Source of the DNA: Planctomycetota bacterium
Lineage (GTDB): Bacteria > Planctomycetota > B15-G4 > JADJEK01
DNA length: 56,119 bases
Direction: 5' to 3'
Assembly: GCA_016213895.1 (NCBI GenBank)
Contig: JACQZJ010000132.1
Coordinates: 1-56,119, forward strand
The notes under the pieces were generated by a model. The model ran no database searches. It was not told where the DNA came from and was given only the letters and a program-made list of their open reading frames with translations. Of this stretch, positions 17,287 to 49,602 are shown one piece after another. Every line of letters starts with the position of its first letter. Position 1 is the stretch's first letter. The position numbers and the translations under genes are program-made.

Positions 17287-19116
17287 ATGTCCTCGCCACG
17301 TGTCGCCCCCGCCAGGTCGTGGATGCTCGTCGTTCCGCTGTTCTTCGCGCTCGCTGGAGCGGCCTGCGCGGCCGCGGAAGTCGTCGGAACCAACGCGCTG
17401 CCGTCCGACGACGCGCGCGTGTTCACCCTCATCAGGCCCGTGGAAGCCGAGGGACTGCGCGTGTCCCTCTCCACCGGCGGGCGCGCCAACAAGATGCGCA
17501 CCCTCGAGCACGGCCTGGACTTCGCCTACGACCCCCTGTTCGGGAAGATCGTCCTGCTGCGCGAAATCCCCTTCGATCGCGATGCGGACATGCTCTTCGT
17601 GCGGGGCAGCCTGCGCGACCCAGGGCTGTTCCTCTTCCACCAGCCCCTCGGCCCCGGCAGCGCGAAGGTGATCCTCGCTGGCAAACGGCTCGTCGAGGGC
17701 CAGGGCTTCGAGGTCGACCTCGAAAAGGGCGCGGTCCGCATCCTCGATCCCGGCATCCAGAAGGCCGGCGCCGAGTTCTACGTGAGCGCCGGGGGCCGCT
17801 CCCTCGGCAACTTCGACATGACCGACGAGACGCGCGCCCTGCTCGAACAAGAGGAACCCGCGCAAGACCCGGCCGCCGCCGGCGACGAGCCGGTGGAGGA
17901 ACAGGCGCCCGAGGAAGGCGCGTCCCCCAAGTTCGAGGGTGATTCCGCCGGGCGCGCCCTGTACGACGCGATGATCGACGCCATGTGGGACGCCGAGACG
18001 CTCTCCTGGGTAAGCAGCTACCAGTTCGGCAGAGCCGGGGAAGAGCATCCTTCCAAGGCCACGTACCGCATCTGGATGAAGAAGCCGAACTACGCGCGCG
18101 TGGAGGCGTACAACGAAGGAGGCGAGCTGAGCGGCATCCTCGTGGGCGACGGCGACCACTTCTGGATCTACTGGCCGAACGGCAAGCCGCGCTACCAGTG
18201 GGAGTACCAGGAGAAGTACGCCGCCGAGTACGAGCTGTTCAAGGACTCCTACTACATGACCAAGCTCACGCCGGTCGGGTGCCACTCCATCGGCCACGAG
18301 GTCGGCAGCCTGGGCGCCGGCATGGCGATGACCATCCTCGACCCGAGCACCTTCCACGGCTACTCCGACTCGCTGCAGCCCTACGTGGACGGCGTGCGCA
18401 GCCTGGGCACGGAGAAGGTCGGGGACGAGGAGTGCGACAAGATCGAAGTCAGCATCATGGACCACCAGCGGAGCTGGTACCTGTGGCTGGCGCAGAGGGA
18501 CCACCTGCCGCGCAAGCTCGAGGAAGTGGTGCGCGTGAGCTTCGACCTCCTCGTGTACGAGGACTGGTCCGAGGTGACGCTCAACGCCGAAATGGCCAGT
18601 GAGCTTTTCCAGTGGCAGCCGCCCGAAGGCTGGAAAGAGTGGGAATTCCCGCCCATCGAGGAGGGCCTGCTGCCGCCGGGCACGGAAGCGCCTGACTTCG
18701 AGCTTTCCGCCGTGGACGGCAGCACGATCCGTCTGTCGGACTATCGCGGCAACGTGGTCTGGCTCAACAAGTGGCGCTGTGGCTGACCCGCCTGCCGTGA
18801 GGAGACAGGGAGTCTCCAGACGATCTACGAGAAGTACCGCGACCAGGGTCTGGTCGTCCTCGGCCTGAACGAGTCCGATGACCGCCAGATCGCCATCGAC
18901 TACATGAAGGAGAACAAGGTCTCCTTCCCGAACGTGCTCGACTCTTCGGAGAAGGCCTGGGAGGTGACCAGCAAGTACGAGACGCTCGGCATGAGCGCCG
19001 TTCCCATGACCTACGTCATCGACCGCGAGGGCAAGATCGTGGACGCGTGGTACGGCTTCGGCGAGGGCCGCATCGACGAGGCGCTGAAGAAGCTGGGCTT
19101 CACCGAGGAGGAGTAG
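17287..19116 (+). CDS. Secreted selenoprotein: DUF2092/LolA-like domain fused to a thioredoxin-fold domain with UxxC active site
   Basis: Read through the in-frame UGA at 18784-18786, this is one 609-residue protein. It has a signal peptide (residues 1-29), an N-terminal domain to about 183, an acidic Glu/Pro linker (about 184-212), a DUF2092/LolA-like beta domain (about 224-450) and an AhpC/TSA-thioredoxin domain (about 460-609). The UGA is residue 500 in WLNKWRCG-U-PACREE, where U-P-A-C replaces the CxxC of thioredoxins. After it the frame runs on with a normal thioredoxin fold (QTIYEKYRDQGLVVLGLN, a cis-Pro in SAVPMTYVIDREG) to TAG at 19114. An ideal SECIS hairpin follows the UGA. The start at 17287 has an AGGAGG site 8 bases upstream. 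Without selenocysteine the protein would lose its whole catalytic half. Confidence 0.92.
18801..18817 (+). promoter_or_regulatory. Bacterial SECIS element of the thioredoxin-fold selenoprotein
   Basis: GGAGAC (18801-18806) pairs perfectly with GTCTCC (18812-18817) around the loop AGGGA. The stem starts 14 nt after the UGA. A 17-nt hairpin with a G-containing apical loop a short distance after the UGA matches the minimal E. coli fdhF SECIS in size, and lies about one codon further from the UGA. SelB would bind it. Confidence 0.85.
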
Positions 19117-37277: not shown

Positions 37278-38747
37278 CTACGGGAAGGGCTCGATCTCCT
37301 CCTTCACCTTCGCGGACGCGAAGGGCCCCACCTGGTAGGTGCACACGACGACGTATTTGGTCTGCGCTTGCGGGCCAGCCCATGTGGCCGAGCAGGTGAA
37401 GCCTCAGCCGTACTCGAAGGCGCCGCGCGCGGCGATCTTCCCGGCCGCGGACAGGATCACGTAGGCCGGCGCCTTGGGCAGGTGCGTCTTCACCGCGTCC
37501 ATCTCGATCTTGGTCGCGCTCCCCGACACGCGCCTCAGGTCGGTGACCACCTCCTGGGCGCTGCCGTCGACGCGGAACTCGACCGGCACGGACTCGGGCG
37601 TGCTGCCCGCGGACTCCTCGTAGGCGCGCCGCGGCACGCGCGCCGCTGGCGCGAAGGGCTCGCCGAAGACCACGGTCGTGGAGCTGCCCGCCGTTGCCGT
37701 GAAGAACGGCGTGCGCGGCGTGGCGGCCGCGGCCACGCTCCAGACGTCGCCCTCGGCGTCGGCACGCAGCAGCCGGTAGCCCGCGACCCGGTACGTCCCG
37801 GGCGGGACGACCGCGGCGCGGCTCGGCTGGAGCATGACCGCGTACGTCCCGCCGTCCTCGGAGGCCAGGAACAGACGCTCGCAGTCCTGCGGGAGGTCGA
37901 GCGCCGCGGTGGCGCCGGCGTACGGCTCGAGCACGAGCGTCTTCGCGGCCGCGTCGATCCTCAACTGGAACAGGCTCTTGCCGAGCGCAAGCACGTTCCC
38001 GAGTGAGCAGAAGTCGCTCGCCTCGACCGCGCCCGCGGTTGTCAGGTAGAGGAAGTCGCCCGTGGCAGAGATGACCTGGACGGGCTCCTCCTCGGCCACC
38101 GCGCAGCGGGCCACGTCGTCGAAGCGCCCGTTGACGTTCGCGTCGGCGAGCAGCAGGCGGCAGACGCCGCCGCCGAACGCCACATCGCCCGCGTAGCAGC
38201 AGTTCGTGGTGACGTGCAAGGATAGGTCCGCGAGGTCGAGCGGGTCGCTCAGCTCGCCCCCCTCGAGCAGCGCGCTCGAGGAGAGTCCAACGCGCAGGCT
38301 GTAGTCCGCGCGCCCGGAGCCAGCACGCAGCGTCAGGTCGAGCGGCGGCGGCTCGAAGAAGCCCGGCAGGGCTTCGGGATCGGCGCTCTTCAGCGCCGGG
38401 TCATTCGTCAGGTCGCCGTCACCGCCGGCGTCGCAGTAGAGGACGCTGAAGAAGGGATCGCCGGCCTGCGCGCGGTCGAAGACGAGCAGGCGCTGTTCCC
38501 CAGCCAGCTCAAGGAGCGCGAACAGGGGCTGCTTGCTGGTGAGAGGCGGCAGCTTGAAGTCTCCGCGCGGCACACTGGTCGCGAGGTCCTCGACGAAGAG
38601 GGTGGAGCGCGGCAGGAACGCCTCGTCCTCCTGCTCGCCCGCCGGGTAGCGCACGTACTCCAGGGACACTTCCTCGGCGGCGGCCGGCGCAACGAGCGCG
38701 CCCGCCAGGAGGCCGGCAAGCGAGACCCGTCTCCACGCTCCTGTCAT
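37278..38747 (-). CDS. Secreted selenoprotein of an undescribed family, paralog of 48148-49602
   Basis: Read through the UGA at 37406-37404 this is a 489-residue exported protein with Sec at residue 448. It has a signal peptide (LAGLLAGALVAPAAA) and the same domain as the gene at 48148. Shared features are an EVSLEY start of the mature part, two acidic Ca-loop-like motifs (GGDGDLTNDPAL and DANVNGRFDDVARC), and a C-terminal GAFEYG-U-GFTCSATWAGP. The frame then continues for 41 codons to TAG at 37280-37278, with YVVVCTYQVGPF matching the paralog. A hairpin follows the UGA at the standard distance. The ATG at 38747 has an AGGAG site 5 bases upstream. Function is unknown; the Sec with Cys four residues later suggests redox chemistry or metal binding outside the membrane. 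Confidence 0.88.
37373..37389 (-). promoter_or_regulatory. Predicted SECIS of the 37278-38747 selenoprotein
   Basis: On the minus strand GGCCAC (37389-37384), loop ATGGG and CTGGCC (37378-37373) form a 17-nt hairpin of five Watson-Crick pairs closed by a C-C mismatch at the loop. It starts 14 nt after the UGA, as in the other selenoprotein genes here. The coding constraint on the conserved tail may explain the imperfect last pair. Confidence 0.72.
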
Positions 38748-38827
38748 CTCTGCTCCTCTGCGGGCAGGGCGCACGAACCGCCCTCTCCGCGTGCGCGGCG
38801 CTTCTGCTTCCCCGGTGATCGATGGTT

Positions 38828-38848
38828 CAGCGGTCGCCGTGACCGCCA
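38828..38848 (-). promoter_or_regulatory. SECIS-like hairpin after the CPT-UGA codon
   Basis: On the minus strand TGGCGGTC (38848-38841) pairs with GACCGCTG (38835-38828) around the loop ACGGC; six pairs are Watson-Crick and the two at the base are G-U. It begins 14 nt after the UGA and lies beyond the downstream TAG, so it is not constrained by coding. Loop size and GG content match the other SECIS elements in the window. Confidence 0.6.
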
Positions 38849-38856
38849 AGGAAGGC

Positions 38857-39138
38857 CTACTGTCACGTCGGGCAGGCTCGCTTGCTGCGCGGCGCGGATC
38901 GGTCGTAGGTGGAGTAGAGCCCGCCCTCCTTGCGAGTGACGCCGGTGAAGGTGGCGTCGATGGCGAGCTGCGCTTCGCTGATCTGATCGAAGGGCGCGAC
39001 GCCGAGCACCTCGGCCAGCTCGTCGGCGTCCAGCACGCGCACCTCGTGCGAGCGCACGCGCCCGACAGCGACGCACGCCACGCCTGCGGCGAGGATGAAG
39101 ACGGCTGCCGCCTTCCTGATCCCAGGGGTTGCCGCCAT
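38857..39138 (-). CDS. Small secreted protein, candidate selenoprotein with C-terminal CxxU
   Basis: A 91-codon frame ends in RSKRACPT and a UGA (38865-38863), then CAG and TAG. With Sec at UGA the protein would be 93 residues and end in C-P-T-U-Q. It has an N-terminal signal or anchor (AAAVFILAAGVACVAVG) and a short acidic domain (VLDADELAEVLG) of no known family. A stable hairpin begins 14 nt after the UGA. It precedes the selenoprotein gene at 37278-38747 by 109 bases on the same strand, so they may form one transcript. GGAGG lies 11 bases before the ATG. If the UGA is an ordinary stop the gene spans 38863-39138. Confidence 0.6.
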
Positions 39139-39337: not shown

Positions 39338-39432
39338 GGAGGTGAGCGGGGCCCGGTGGCTCCCGCGGCCTTCAAAGCCGTCGTATCGTCGCTTAGACGC
39401 TAGGTGGGTTCGACTCCCATTCACCTCCGCCA
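39338..39432 (+). tRNA. selC: tRNA-Sec (anticodon TCA)
   Basis: The acceptor stem has 8 pairs, GGAGGTGA (39338-39345) with TCACCTCC (39421-39428), then discriminator G and encoded CCA. The anticodon loop CTTCAAA (39370-39376) carries TCA at 39372-39374, which reads UGA. The D arm, a long variable arm (CGTC...GACG), and a 5-bp T arm around TTCGACT complete the 8+5 acceptor/T geometry of bacterial tRNA-Sec. It lies 16 bases before selA on the same strand. It proves that UGA can be decoded as selenocysteine in this genome. Confidence 0.97.
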
Positions 39433-39447
39433 CCTTCTCATGCACTC

Positions 39448-40863
39448 ATGACACGAGATTCCTCTCCTCAAGACGGCGGCGACGACACGCGGCGCGGGCT
39501 GATCCCGGTCTACGCCGTGCTGGAGGAGCCCCGCATCCTCGAGCTGATCGCCGAGTTCTCGCGCCCGCTGGTGGTGGACGCCATCAAGGCCGCCCTCGAC
39601 GAGTTCCGCCGCGCCTTCCGTCCCGGGGCCGCGCTGCCGGCCATGGACGAGGTCGTGGAGCGCGTGCGCCACGTCGTCATCGATGAGGAGAAGGACCGCC
39701 TGCGGCCGGTGGTGAACGCCACGGGCCTCATCCTGCACACCGGGCTCGGCCGCGCCGTGCTGCCGCCGCGCGCCGCGGCCGCCCTCGCCTCGCTCGACCG
39801 CTGCTGCAGCATGCAGATCGACATCGAGACCGGGAAGCGCGGCAAGCGCAGCTACATGACCGAGCGCCTGCTCACGCGCTTGACCGGCGCCGAGGCGGCG
39901 ATGATCACCAACAACAACGCCGCCGCCACGCTCCTCATCCTCTCCGCGCTCTGCACCGGCAAGGAGGTCATCGTCTCGCACGGGCAGCTCATCGAGATCG
40001 GCGGCTCGTTCCGCCTGCCGGACTGCATCCGCCAGAGCGGCGCCATCGCCGTGCCGGTCGGCACCACGAACCGCACGCACCTGCGCGACTACGAAGAGGC
40101 GCTCTGCGAGCGGACGGGCGCCATCCTGCGCGCCAACCCCAGCAACTACCGCGTGGTCGGGTTCGCCAAGGAAGTGTCCATCGCCGAGCTGGTCGGGCTG
40201 AAGAAGAAGCGGCAGGTGATCGTCATCGACGACGTCGGCTGCGGCGCCCTGGTCGACACCGAACGCTACGGCCTGCCGAAAGAGCTGACCGTCCAGGAGA
40301 GCATCGCCGCGGGTGCGGACGTCGTCTGCTTCAGCGGCGACAAGCTGATCGGCGGGCCGCAGGCCGGCATCGTCGTCGGCCGCGCCGAGCTGATCGCGCG
40401 CATCAAGAAGCACCCCTTCGCGCGCATGATGCGCGTGTGCAAGCTCACCGACCTCGCACTCGAGCAGACGCTGCGGCTCTTCCTCGACGAGGAGACTCTC
40501 CTCGAGAACCACCCGACCCTGCGCATGCTGGCGGCCGACCCGGCCGCGCTGCGCAGGAAGGCGCAGCGCTTGAAGAAGCGCATCGACGCGGACCGGCTGC
40601 CCCTCCAACTACGCGTCAAGGAGGACGAGAGCGCCGCCGGCGGCGGCTCCATGCCCGCCACGCCGCTCAAGACCTACGTGCTGGCGGTGCAGAGCGCGGT
40701 GCACTCGTCCGACCGCCTGAGCCAGCTCCTGCGCCGGAACGAACCGCCCGTCATCACGCGCATCAGCGAGGCCGAGGTGATCATCGACATGCGCACGCTC
40801 CTCGACGGCGAGGAGAAGCTGGTGCATGAGGCCCTGCGGCGCGTAGCGCGCGCGGAGTCGTGA
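39448..40863 (+). CDS. selA: L-seryl-tRNA(Sec) selenium transferase
   Basis: SelA (471 residues) converts Ser-tRNA-Sec to Sec-tRNA-Sec using selenophosphate. The N-terminal domain carries VNATGLILHTGLGRA near residue 90, which is the family signature. The PLP lysine is in CFSGDKLIGGPQAG near 300. MITNNNAAATLLIL and VIVIDDVGCGAL belong to the fold-type I aminotransferase core. It lies directly after the tRNA-Sec gene and 43 bases before selB. SelD, needed to supply selenophosphate, is not in the window. Confidence 0.96.
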   Translation: MTRDSSPQDGGDDTRRGLIPVYAVLEEPRILELIAEFSRPLVVDAIKAALDEFRRAFRPGAALPAMDEVVERVRHVVIDEEKDRLRPVVNATGLILHTGLGRAVLPPRAAAALASLDRCCSMQIDIETGKRGKRSYMTERLLTRLTGAEAAMITNNNAAATLLILSALCTGKEVIVSHGQLIEIGGSFRLPDCIRQSGAIAVPVGTTNRTHLRDYEEALCERTGAILRANPSNYRVVGFAKEVSIAELVGLKKKRQVIVIDDVGCGALVDTERYGLPKELTVQESIAAGADVVCFSGDKLIGGPQAGIVVGRAELIARIKKHPFARMMRVCKLTDLALEQTLRLFLDEETLLENHPTLRMLAADPAALRRKAQRLKKRIDADRLPLQLRVKEDESAAGGGSMPATPLKTYVLAVQSAVHSSDRLSQLLRRNEPPVITRISEAEVIIDMRTLLDGEEKLVHEALRRVARAES

Positions 40864-40906: not shown

Positions 40907-42898
40907 ATGAAGCACCCGCCCCCTGGGTTTCTGCGCCAGAAGATGGACCCCGAGGTCCTGCTGATGGTTTGCACGGCGGGGCACGTTGACCACGGCAAGA
41001 CCAGCCTGGTCAAGACCCTGACCGGCTGCTCCATGGACCGCCTCAAGGAGGAGCAGGAGCGCAAGCTGACCATCGAGCTGGGCTTCGCCCCTTGCGTGCT
41101 GGGGAGCGGCGACGTGTGCGTGGGCATCGTCGACGTCCCGGGCCACGAGAAGTTCGTCAAGAACATGGTCGCGGGGGTGTCCGGAATCGACATGACCATC
41201 CTCGTGGTGGCGGCCGACGACGGCGTCATGCCCCAGACCGTGGAGCACTTCCAGATCCTGGAGCTGCTGGGCGTGCGCCACGGGATGGTGGCCCTGACCA
41301 AGATCGACCGCGTCTCGCGCGAGCGCGTGGCGGAAGTGAACGGCGAGATCCGCGAGTTCCTCGCCGGCTCCTTCATGGAGAAGGCCACGATCTGCCCGGT
41401 CTCGTCCGAGACCTGGGAGGGCTTCCCGGAGTTCTACGACGCCCTGGTGCAGGAGGTCAAAGGACTCTCGCGGCGGCGCTCGCTCGGCGTGTTCCGCATG
41501 CCGGTCCTGAACTCGTTCACGCGCCAGGGATTCGGCTCCGTGGTCACCGGCATCCCGGTGGACGGGACGATCGAGGTCGGCCAGGCGCTGGAGCTGGTCC
41601 CAGGCGGGCAGAAGGGCAAGCTGCGCAGCCTGCAGCGCTTCCTCAGGGACGCGACGGCCGGCGGCTTCGGCCAGTGCCTCGCGCTCAACATCCCCGAGTT
41701 CGGCAAGACTCCGCCGGAGCGCGGCCAGGTCATCTGCGCGCCCGGCTGCCTCAGGGCCTGGCAGTCCCTGCACCTGCGGCTCAAGGTGGTCGCGGGCATC
41801 GACAGGCCGCTGAAGAACGCCGAGCACGTCAAGTTCCACACCGGCACGAGCGAGGAGTACGGCCGGCTCTACCTGCTCGAGGAGAAGATGCTCGGCGAGG
41901 GCCAGACCGGCCTGGCGAACATCGTGCTCGCCGCGCCGCTCGCGGTCGCCGTGCACGACAAGTTCATCATCCGGCGGCCCGCGCCCGCGGTCACGGTGGC
42001 GGGCGGCGAGGTCATCGGCATGTCGCCGTCCGCGGTCAAGGCCTCTCGGCGGCAGGCGGTGGCGCGGCTGCGCACCTACGTCGAGTTCTTCCAGGACGCG
42101 AGCCTGGCCGGCGCCGAGCGCGTGGAGCGCGAGATCGAGTACTTCCTGTGCAGCGAAGGAGCGACCGGCGCCAGCCTGCGCGAGATCGCGCGCGGCACGC
42201 TGCTCGCCGACGAGGCCGTGCGCGAGACCGTCACGCGCCTGGAGGAAGCGGGCCGGGTGCTGCGGCTCGCCCCGGACAGCATCATCCACCGCTCCAGCTA
42301 CGACGCGAGCCTCGCCGAGGCGGCGGCGCGCGTGCAGCGGCACGTGGCCGAGGGCAAGGTCCTGAGCCTGGCGCTCGCGGACCTGCGCCGCGGGCTCTGC
42401 TGGCCGGCCGCGCTCTGGAGCCGCGTCGAGGAGGACCTCGCGAAGCAGGGGCTGGTCTCGCGCCGCGGGGACCGCGTGGTGCTCGAGAGCGCGGCCGGCG
42501 GGCTGAACGACAAGGACCAGGACCTGGTGCAGAGGATCGTCGCGACCTTCGACGAGCACGGCTTCAAGTCGCCGCGGCCGGACGAGCTGCCCGACCTGCT
42601 GCGCGCGCCTGAGGAGCGCGTCGAGCGCCTGCTCGACTACCTCTGCGCCAAGAAGGAGCTGTTCCGCCTGGCGAAGAACGTGGTCCTGAGCCGCCGCTGG
42701 CTCAGGAAGGCGGAGGAGCTGGTGGTCCAGGTGGTCCAGGAGAAGGGCGTGCTCGATTCCGCCGACTTCAAGTACCATATCGACTCGACGCGCAAGTACG
42801 CGCTCGCCATCCTGGACTACCTGGACTCGCGCAACGTGACAGTGCGCAGAGGCAACGACAGACACCTGGCCGCTGACTACCGCAGGAACTTGACTTGA
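40907..42898 (+). CDS. selB: Selenocysteine-specific elongation factor SelB
   Basis: SelB (663 residues) brings Sec-tRNA-Sec to UGA codons that have a SECIS hairpin. The GTPase motifs are TAGHVDHGKTSL near residue 22, DVPGHEKF near 80 and TKID near 130. The C-terminal 230 residues contain winged-helix domains that bind the SECIS loop. The family usually begins just before the GTPase loop, so an internal ATG at 40964 is a possible alternative start. It forms a tight group with tRNA-Sec and selA. Confidence 0.95.
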   Translation: MKHPPPGFLRQKMDPEVLLMVCTAGHVDHGKTSLVKTLTGCSMDRLKEEQERKLTIELGFAPCVLGSGDVCVGIVDVPGHEKFVKNMVAGVSGIDMTILVVAADDGVMPQTVEHFQILELLGVRHGMVALTKIDRVSRERVAEVNGEIREFLAGSFMEKATICPVSSETWEGFPEFYDALVQEVKGLSRRRSLGVFRMPVLNSFTRQGFGSVVTGIPVDGTIEVGQALELVPGGQKGKLRSLQRFLRDATAGGFGQCLALNIPEFGKTPPERGQVICAPGCLRAWQSLHLRLKVVAGIDRPLKNAEHVKFHTGTSEEYGRLYLLEEKMLGEGQTGLANIVLAAPLAVAVHDKFIIRRPAPAVTVAGGEVIGMSPSAVKASRRQAVARLRTYVEFFQDASLAGAERVEREIEYFLCSEGATGASLREIARGTLLADEAVRETVTRLEEAGRVLRLAPDSIIHRSSYDASLAEAAARVQRHVAEGKVLSLALADLRRGLCWPAALWSRVEEDLAKQGLVSRRGDRVVLESAAGGLNDKDQDLVQRIVATFDEHGFKSPRPDELPDLLRAPEERVERLLDYLCAKKELFRLAKNVVLSRRWLRKAEELVVQVVQEKGVLDSADFKYHIDSTRKYALAILDYLDSRNVTVRRGNDRHLAADYRRNLT

Positions 42899-42941: not shown

Positions 42942-43784
42942 ATGATGATCCAGAAGACCAGGAGGTGGGTGCAGACCTTCTCCCTCCTCCTGCTGCACAG
43001 TTCCTGGAGTCCCGCCCTCCAGCTCAAGTGGTTCTGCGCGCCGGTCTTGAGCTGCCACTCCTGCGCGCTCGCCTGGTTCGCCTGCCCGATGGGCATCTTC
43101 GTGCACTACTCGGGCTGGCACGTCTTCCCCTATCTGACGCTCGGGCTCTTCCTGCTGCTGGCCGCGCTGCTCGGCCGCCTGCTGTGCGGCTGGGTTTGCC
43201 CCTTCGGCTTCCTCCAGGACCTCTTGCACAAGATCCCCACGCCCAAGCTCGCGTTGCCGCGCTGGACCTCGTACATCAAGTACCTGGTGCTTTTGCTCAC
43301 GATCTTCGCCCTGCCCTGGTTCTTCGGCGCCGAGACTCTCTGGTCCTTCTGCCGCGTCTGTCCCGCCTCCGCGCTCCAGGTCACGATCCCGAACCTGATC
43401 GGCGGCGGCGCGATCAGCCTCGCCACGGCGATCAAGCTGGGCGTGCTCGTCCTCGTGCTGCTCCTGGTCCTCTTCTTCGAGCGCGCCTTCTGCCGCGTCC
43501 TCTGCCCGCTCGGCGCCATGCTGGCGCCCTTCAATCACGTCAGCTTCTGGAGCGTCAGCCCGGCCAAGTTCGAGTGCCTCAAGTGCGAGAAGTGCAACAA
43601 GGTCTGTCCCATGGAAGGGAAGCCCTCCGAGCGCTTCCGCCAAGGCGTTCCCGCGAGCCGCGCACTCGAGTGCGTGGTTTGCCACGAGTGCCAGACCGTG
43701 TGCGTGCAGCGGGGCCCAAAGCCGCGCACGCCGCGCAAGAGACCTGAGCAACCGCCGGCCGCCGCGCCGCCGAAGACCCCGTAG
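42942..43784 (+). CDS. NapH/polyferredoxin-type membrane iron-sulfur protein
   Basis: The 280-residue protein has about four membrane segments (for example FPYLTLGLFLLLAALLG and KLGVLVLVLLLVLFF). CGWVCPFGFLQDLL and FCRVLCPLGAML are the CxxxCP motifs of the NapH/YccM/RdxA family. Ferredoxin-like clusters CLKCEKCNKVCP and CVVCHECQTVC follow in the C-terminal cytoplasmic part. Members pass electrons across the membrane to periplasmic enzymes. The gene follows selB by 43 bases and may be co-transcribed, but has no clear ribosome-binding site. A Pro-rich tail closes the protein. Confidence 0.85.
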   Translation: MMIQKTRRWVQTFSLLLLHSSWSPALQLKWFCAPVLSCHSCALAWFACPMGIFVHYSGWHVFPYLTLGLFLLLAALLGRLLCGWVCPFGFLQDLLHKIPTPKLALPRWTSYIKYLVLLLTIFALPWFFGAETLWSFCRVCPASALQVTIPNLIGGGAISLATAIKLGVLVLVLLLVLFFERAFCRVLCPLGAMLAPFNHVSFWSVSPAKFECLKCEKCNKVCPMEGKPSERFRQGVPASRALECVVCHECQTVCVQRGPKPRTPRKRPEQPPAAAPPKTP

Positions 43785-48147: not shown

Positions 48148-49602
48148 ATGACATTTGGATTTCCGGTTCGGTCTCTCGCGCTGCTCTTCCTTCTTTGCGG
48201 TCTCGCGCCTGCAGAGATCCTGGAGGTGCCGCTCGAGTACCGGCAGAACTGCGACGACAAGGACGCAACGCATCCCTGGGGGAGCGCCTACGCGCTGCCC
48301 TCGCCCGACTGTCCCGGCGGCGACTGGAAGCTGCCGGAGTTGACGGGCGCGCGGCCGCTCTACGCGACCCTGACCCTCGGCGAGACCGACTTCCTGGTCG
48401 TCCTCGACCGCGTCGCGGAGAAAGACGGTTTCTACAACCGCATCCGCTTCGACCGGAACGACAACGGCGACCTCACGGACGACCCGGTGCTCCTGGGCGA
48501 TCTAGCCCCCTTCGGAGACATCAAGCAGTACTACGTCTCGTTCGACGACGAGGTCTCGGTCGAGTACCGCCTCGGCGGCACCGTCCTGCCCTACCGGCTG
48601 GGCTTCAGCCTCCAGGGGCAGGACCAAGAGGAAGGCGCCGGAGACGACGCCCCGCGCTTCATCTACTTCGGCGTCGCCGCGGCCTGCCACTATGCGGCCT
48701 CGTTCACGCTGGACGGCGCGTCCTACCAAGTCATGCTCGGAGACGGCGACTGCAACGGCGCCTTCTCCAACACGGCGCGCATCGACGAGAACATGCACCT
48801 GTCCGCGGACCAGCCGATCTACGCCCAGGGCGATAGCCTGTACCTCACGGCCGAGAAGAAGTTCTCGCGCGGAGACGACTTCCTGCTGGGCGATCTCCTG
48901 GTCCTCGGCGAGAGCATCTTCACGGTCAAGGTGGACACGGCCGCGCGCACGCTCACGCTCGCGCCGGCCCAGGGCGACCTCGTGCCCCTCAAGCTCTCCC
49001 AGGCGCCGGAGCGCCTGCTCCTGCTCGAGCGGAGCTTCGCGCACTGCGTCATGATGCACCGGCCGGCCATCGCCAGGATCCCGGCCGGCGACTGGCGGCT
49101 GCTCAGCTACGCGCTGCTCCGCACTGGCAAGGAAGGCGACCTCTGGCGGCTCGAAGCCGCCGGCAGCGGCGCGACGCCCTTCGTGAGCGCGGCGCCCGGC
49201 GCCGAGGCCCTGCTCGAGTTCGGCGAACCCTACCTGCCCCTGGCGCAGGTTTCCGAATGGTCGCTGCAGAACATGCAGGAGAACGGCGCGACCGAGGCGT
49301 CGCTCGCATTCAACGTCCAGGGACGGGTGCAGGAGTTCCTGACCGACCTCCGGCGCCTCGCGGGCGACAAGAGCTCGATCGCTCTCTCGCGGAGCAGCAC
49401 GGACCGCCCGGCGGAGCCGACCTACACCATCGTCACGGCATCGGGAGAGAATGTCGCCGAGGGGACCTTCGAGTACGGGTGAGGCTTCAGCTGCTCGGCC
49501 GCATGGAGCGGCCCGAAGAAGGGCGTGGACTACGTCATCGTCTGCAAGTACGAGGTCGGCCCGTTCGAGACCAAGATCGAGAAGCGCTCGTTCCGCTATT
49601 GA
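48148..49602 (+). CDS. Secreted selenoprotein of an undescribed family, paralog of 37278-38747
   Basis: Read through the UGA at 49480-49482 this is a 484-residue exported protein with Sec at residue 445. The start has AGGAGG 7 bases upstream and a signal peptide (LALLFLLCGLAPA). The mature part has RFDRNDNGDLTDDPVL and DGDCNGAFSNTARI, both like Ca-binding loops, at positions equivalent to the paralog. It ends GTFEYG-U-GFSCSAAWSGP, followed by YVIVCKYEVGPF, then UGA at 49600. Of the first 28 residues after the Sec, 17 are identical to the paralog, including both cysteines and the Trp. A perfect SECIS-type hairpin follows the UGA. Read as a stop, the 39 conserved codons would be unexplained. 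Confidence 0.9.
49497..49513 (+). promoter_or_regulatory. Predicted SECIS of the 48148-49602 selenoprotein
   Basis: GGCCGC (49497-49502) pairs perfectly with GCGGCC (49508-49513) around the loop ATGGA. The stem begins 14 nt after the UGA, the same distance and the same 6+5+6 geometry as in the thioredoxin-fold selenoprotein gene at 18801. Confidence 0.85.

Follow-up and report, generated by a model that had tools for sequence, protein, structure and literature searches.

A predicted family of small CxxU selenoproteins linked to selenocysteine genes and a NapH-like membrane ferredoxin in Planctomycetota

Several described systems resemble the locus reported here in one respect or another. Mammalian thioredoxin reductase, a soluble flavoenzyme, ends in a flexible GCUG tail of adjacent Cys and selenocysteine (Sec) residues, in which Sec is next to last. 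Sec lies close to the stop codon also in the 'star' selenoproteins (UXX-star, NF041114 and NF041211; KCU-star, NF033934). Members of the CD1871A family (NF040920) are tiny proteins of about 40 amino acids with one N-terminal helix, a C-terminal CxxC(-IGIG) and, in the members encountered in this analysis, a NapH-like neighbour, and they carry Cys, not Sec. NapH and MauN (TIGR02163) are themselves membrane ferredoxins of the Fer4_5 type. For the bacterial Sec insertion element (bSECIS), the published model asks for a stem of 4-16 bp, a loop of 3-9 nt lying 16-37 nt from the UGA, an energy of at most -7.5 kcal/mol and a G as the first or second nucleotide of the loop, and some elements are known to depart from it (2026 review, PMC13188914).

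The window analysed here, that is the whole stretch of 56,119 nucleotides of a Planctomycetota contig (JACQZJ010000132.1, assembly GCA_016213895.1), contains a small gene divergent from an adjacent tRNA-Sec gene, which is followed by selA and selB (Table 1). Because these three genes adjoin the small gene, the genome can be taken to decode UGA as Sec, and the criterion of neighbouring Sec machinery for a bacterial selenoprotein gene is met. As a separate observation, this genome (G000) holds two selB genes (contigs C97 and C82) and two high-scoring tRNA-Sec genes (C97 and C214), and several SelB copies are also present in G024 and G045; the duplication in G000 possibly reflects two Sec systems differing in SECIS preference.

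Table 1. Positions of the features discussed, numbered from the first nucleotide of the window
Feature	Position	Strand	Basis or remarks
Sec codon of TlpA/ResA-like redoxin (WRCG-U-PAC)	18784..18786	+	hairpin with AGGGA loop
Family member B, exported protein, Sec at 37404-37406 (FEYG-U-GFTC)	37278..38747	-	all-beta model, pLDDT 82
bSECIS-like hairpin TTGGCGGTC(ACGGC)GACCGCTGA	38827..38849	-	past the UAG, non-coding; stem from 14 nt after the UGA
Small gene, putative CxxU selenoprotein	38857..39138	-	91 codons + UGA + CAG + UAG; membrane helix at the N-terminus, tail C-P-T-Sec-Gln
In-frame UGA, Sec codon at position 92 of the protein	38863..38865	-	UGA in all loci of the type that were read (20 from the bait set, 19 found by profile)
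tRNA-Sec gene	39338..39432	+	Rfam RF01852, 73.1 bits; ARAGORN
selA	39448..40863	+	TIGR00474, 512 bits
selB	40907..42898	+	TIGR00475, 303 bits
NapH/MauN-like membrane ferredoxin (Fer4_5), presumed partner	42942..43784	+	PF12801, 56.1 bits (cut-off 22)
Family member A (Sec at 49480-49482), paralogous to B	48148..49602	+	

Translation of the small gene gives MAATPGIRKAAAVFILAAGVACVAVGRVRSHEVRVLDADELAEVLGVAPFDQISEAQLAIDATFTGVTRKEGGLYSTYDRSAPRSKRACPT, after which UGA, CAG and UAG follow; the boundaries, the length and the CPT-UGA-CAG-UAG end put forward in the preliminary description were all confirmed, and gene B indeed lies downstream in the same direction after a gap of 109 nt. The signal of that description is better read as a single N-terminal membrane helix in the light of the AlphaFold2 model (cleavage was not assessed): residues 5-31 are helical with a pLDDT of 78-92, the remainder reaching only about 50-60. 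Since one confident helix and an otherwise uncertain chain is all that the model offers, the most fitting picture is of a protein anchored N-terminally with its tail free outside the cytoplasm. With the CD1871A members it has in common the single helix, a C-terminal motif of the same spacing (CxxU in place of their CxxC) and, in most genomes, the NapH-like neighbour. The likeness to thioredoxin reductase, an unrelated enzyme, is one of analogy only, as both possess a flexible Cys/Sec tail with penultimate Sec, adjacent C-U in the one and CxxU in the other.

None of the Pfam and NCBIfam models matches the window protein. NF040920 gave no hit at E up to 10 to it or to any of the remaining long Sec forms, the only Sec form matching this model, weakly (E 0.015), being a short one with the tail CFS-U-TLGQ (L053); the 'star' selenoproteins have different motifs, and their models did not match when all of NCBIfam was scanned at the same limit. 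There was no match in a plasmid collection and no convincing paralog in the genome itself (best E 0.3 and above). A table of 119 reviewed prokaryotic selenoprotein families holds no corresponding entry (PMC13188914), and in the literature no description of a CxxU/NapH-like pair was found. Selenoproteins with Sec near the C-terminus are a known kind, but in the sources searched there appears to be no description of this family, of its partner or of its constant position at the Sec locus.

Homologs recognisable by direct comparison are few. A protein search of 148 relatives returned the sister species (G001, same genus; a metagenome-assembled genome, MAG, named Phycisphaera mikurensis) and two weak matches, and in a scan of genome contigs the sister record, DYIW01000002.1, was the sole match; the closest relatives of the same family (G002, G003) and the order yielded no homolog. 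In the sister the same gene occupies the same place and ends in an identical CPT-TGA-CAG-TAG. After the UGA, 30 of 33 nt are identical, compared with 32 of 60 in the stretch that follows, and two of the three differences affect both sides of one stem pair, a compensatory change from G-C to C-G. A distant homolog (47% identity) was found in another family of the phylum, in G235, with the tail ACPT-TGA-ATC-TAG; the stem sequence of its hairpin differs from that of the window while the ACGGC loop is identical. There the small gene begins on the stop codon of selB and is directly followed by a NapH-like ferredoxin gene, a homolog of which follows selB in the window. A profile (A3) run over the relatives of G235 gave nothing convincing.

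When 392 genomes from the phylum were searched with the NapH-like ferredoxin as bait (E <= 1e-25), it turned up in 26, and 20 of these possess, beside it or in a nearby sel locus, a short open reading frame with an N-terminal hydrophobic helix and a C-x-x-UGA tail (17 loci besides the window, the sister and G235). The tails read CPT, CST, CKT, CAT, CFS and once CTA before the codon at the Sec position, which is always UGA; the stop that follows is TAG in eight, TGA in six and TAA in six. It lies within 0-4 codons in 19 of the 20 loci, a closeness with a composition-based log10 P of -22.6 over all of them and found in only 10% of control TGA-ended frames of at least 250 codons. The poorest Sec calls are L051 (CTA-U, then 12 codons, with a hairpin centred 32 nt away) and L063, whose hairpin is weak. 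Three loci lack a clear partner: the frame at L048 (G051) ends in SFT-UGA without a CxxU, at L054 (G045) selD lies upstream instead, and for L060 (G027) a CVS-UGA gene is located on another contig (L112). As a prospective test, a profile built from nine family proteins (A5) was then run on 137 relatives of G286 and matched 33 of them, every alignment ending at the residue that precedes the Sec position. Nineteen new loci found in this way were read, and all of them have C-x-T followed by TGA and a stop after two further codons, so that a close stop is present in 38 of 39 loci over both sets. All family loci belong to one phylum and come mostly from MAGs.

The hairpin of the window, 9 pairs closed by a 5-nt loop, begins where the preliminary description had placed it, 14 nt after the UGA and beyond the UAG; its loop, with the GG, starts at 23 nt and its energy is -13.1 kcal/mol. 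The spacing had been likened to that of the three other Sec genes in the window, and this is true within 2-3 nt, as their GG-containing loops start 20-21 nt after the UGA. Folding of the region after the UGA reproduced the hairpin, but 60 nt taken as a whole reach a z of only -0.83. By itself the hairpin is modestly better than chance (p 0.008 against shuffles, 0.029 against other TGAs of the locus), and the strong evidence is comparative. Of the 19 bait loci tested, 18 have a loop that starts 22-26 nt beyond the UGA, and the combined p values of the hairpins are about 1e-18 against shuffles and about 1e-16 when the remaining TGAs of each locus serve as control (per-locus p floored at 0.002); in the profile-found loci the loop starts 20-24 nt beyond the UGA in 19 of 19 (combined p 1e-20). 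Since MAFFT put hairpins with 3-nt and 5-nt loops in different registers, pairs were counted on loop-anchored hairpins: 88% are canonical, against 58% in shuffles, a figure inflated because each hairpin is the best of its stretch, and the covariation exceeds that of 2000 of 2000 shuffles. The window hairpin meets the stem, loop-size, distance and energy criteria of the published bSECIS model (PMC13188914). The strict rule on the loop is not met in the window, because its ACGGC loop has the Gs at positions 3-4, as do the loops of the sister and G235; most other family members do comply (TGG, GGA, GGT, TGT and CGT loops).

In most other genomes the CxxU gene directly adjoins the NapH-like gene, typically in the order selD - tRNA-Sec - CxxU - NapH or selA - selB - CxxU - NapH, and 17 of the 19 profile-found loci have the NapH-like gene directly downstream. 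In the window and the sister the small gene is located on the other side of tRNA-Sec - selA - selB - NapH and is thus parted from the NapH-like gene. SelB scores over cut-off in 24 of the 26 genomes with the NapH-like gene and in 210 of the 366 without it (p 2.7e-4), and tRNA-Sec occurs in all 26. The partner resembles the NapH/MauN family in its Fer4_5-type domain (PF12801 over cut-off); it differs in scoring 63.6 bits against the curated TIGR02163 cut-off of 213.05, in an additional N-terminal Cys-rich stretch, C-x5-C-x2-C-x6-CPxG, and in accompanying sel genes. Other genes seen around it include one for a DUF5329 protein (PF17263; 43798-44694, reverse strand) after the NapH-like gene of the window, on the opposite strand; a SelD fused to a C-terminal AhpD-type domain at L040 (6592-8247), in an operon selA-selD-selB-CxxU-NapH; and, near the NapH-like gene at L071 (13532-18679), L068, L083 and L085, a block of double-cubane-cluster reductase (NF040772), activase and methyltransferase, with selD beside this block in three of the four loci.

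Four NapH-like genes (L049, L052, L058, L067) have instead a shorter partner ending in CxxC-IG(I/L)(G/E). Against NF040920 the one at L058 scores over cut-off, that at L049 reaches 31.4 of the required 32 bits, that at L052 does not match, and that at L067, which was not scanned, is similar in sequence. None of these loci lies beside sel genes on its own contig, as far as read, and the two genomes with a NapH-like gene but without SelB over cut-off are two of the CxxC-partner genomes, both incomplete. Both forms coexist in G043, a CPTU partner beside tRNA-Sec (L046/L070) and a CLECIGIG partner elsewhere (L067). Among sequence homologs no Cys version was found; the CxxC partner is the nearest thing to one, by position and shape and not by proven homology, and its occurrence in the same place is expected if Sec and Cys forms share one redox job.

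Members A and B represent a second undescribed selenoprotein family, exported and all-beta, with the Sec motif EYG-U-G[FG]xC (FEYG-U-GF(S/T)C in the window) and without a match in Pfam or NCBIfam. A third copy is present in the same genome (contig C68) and others in G001, G061, G283, G286, G276 and G317, in the last four of which they are also close to the CxxU/NapH-like pair. The fold of B was uninformative, its best PDB matches being fibronectin-type modules with TM below 0.2.

Could the UGA be an ordinary stop, the protein ending at CPT and the hairpin being incidental or regulatory for the next gene? No stop is used more often here than UGA, which ends 182 of 298 control frames, and the hairpin is unexceptional in the window sequence alone. 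Yet the codon is UGA in all of the roughly 40 loci, even in AT-rich ones, and the stop behind it varies and is far too close for chance; the hairpin is kept in the window and the sister, where the NapH-like gene is not next, and a reading as terminator was rejected in the absence of a terminator-like site. The preliminary description had named homologs ending at CPT with TAA or TAG, or a hairpin that is not conserved, as grounds for refutation. Neither materialised: in no sequence homolog read is the UGA replaced by TAA, TAG or a sense codon, and the hairpin persists across about 40 loci, its loop 20-26 nt after the UGA in nearly all. Already contradicted by the comparison, an ordinary stop seems scarcely tenable. 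With a conserved in-frame UGA and a short coding tail beyond it, another criterion for a selenoprotein gene is met, and the UGA is almost certainly decoded as Sec, a conclusion supported by the conserved codon, the close next stop and the hairpins in the absence of any selenium measurement or expression data. At the level of sequence comparison, the small-protein family and its operon linkage are established.

As to function, a membrane-held CxxU selenoprotein relaying electrons together with the NapH-like protein outside the cytoplasm is, in our opinion, the probable overall explanation. The bSECIS hairpin just beyond the true stop codon would direct Sec decoding of the UGA, and one N-terminal helix would hold the product in the cytoplasmic membrane, its body and the C-P-T-Sec-Gln tail outside. 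The iron-sulfur clusters of the NapH-like protein may hand electrons to the Cys/Sec pair of this tail, whose selenol could then reduce thiol or selenothiol proteins outside the cytoplasm, for instance family A/B or the TlpA-like redoxin. Membrane topology, the idea that the two partners form an electron path, and the direction and targets of this path are all inferred and can be called no more than rather likely; the path rests on guilt by association, the A/B and TlpA-like targets are speculative, and the separation of the two genes in the window and the sister counts against the explanation. The main rival, on account of the linkage to sel genes, is that the pair serves selenium supply, the selenol tail and the membrane ferredoxin reducing or handing over oxidised selenium, so that selenide reaches SelD. 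The pair indeed lies in or beside a selD, tRNA-Sec, selA or selB locus in 17 of 20 bait genomes and, among the 19 profile-found loci, in at least 16, which have a complete tRNA-Sec gene no more than 1.5 kb upstream (at a 17th locus the contig end truncates it). However, sel genes often adjoin a major Sec user as well, and SelB is found in 234 of 392 genomes but the NapH-like gene in only 26; since many Sec-decoding genomes of the phylum lack it, this partner is not needed for Sec synthesis generally. We regard a supply role as unlikely, noting that it and the relay are both inferences from gene context. Short CxxC or CxxU tails bind soft metals in other families, and the Cys/Sec pair might accordingly bind or detoxify thiol-reactive metal or metalloid ions rather than carry electrons; this appears quite improbable, as none of the conserved neighbours was recognised as a metal-resistance gene and the constant one is an iron-sulfur redox protein.

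Annotation pipelines overlook or truncate short genes in which Sec adjoins the stop. The CxxU family extends across many taxonomic families within a single phylum and is physically linked to the genes of the Sec machinery; its membrane partner is easily recognised, and a Cys counterpart takes the same position beside that partner. As about 40 genomes keep the tail and the RNA signal, usually beside a membrane iron-sulfur protein and Sec genes, it is taken to be an undescribed selenium-containing redox family. More tentatively, and this may well not hold, the selD - tRNA-Sec - CxxU - NapH-like module could carry electrons across the membrane to keep exported selenoproteins, or selenium on its way in, in the reduced state, and could at the same time be the user of Sec on whose account part of the phylum retains the Sec trait. 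What a selenol does outside the membrane, and why its gene travels with selD and tRNA-Sec, thereby becomes a testable question.
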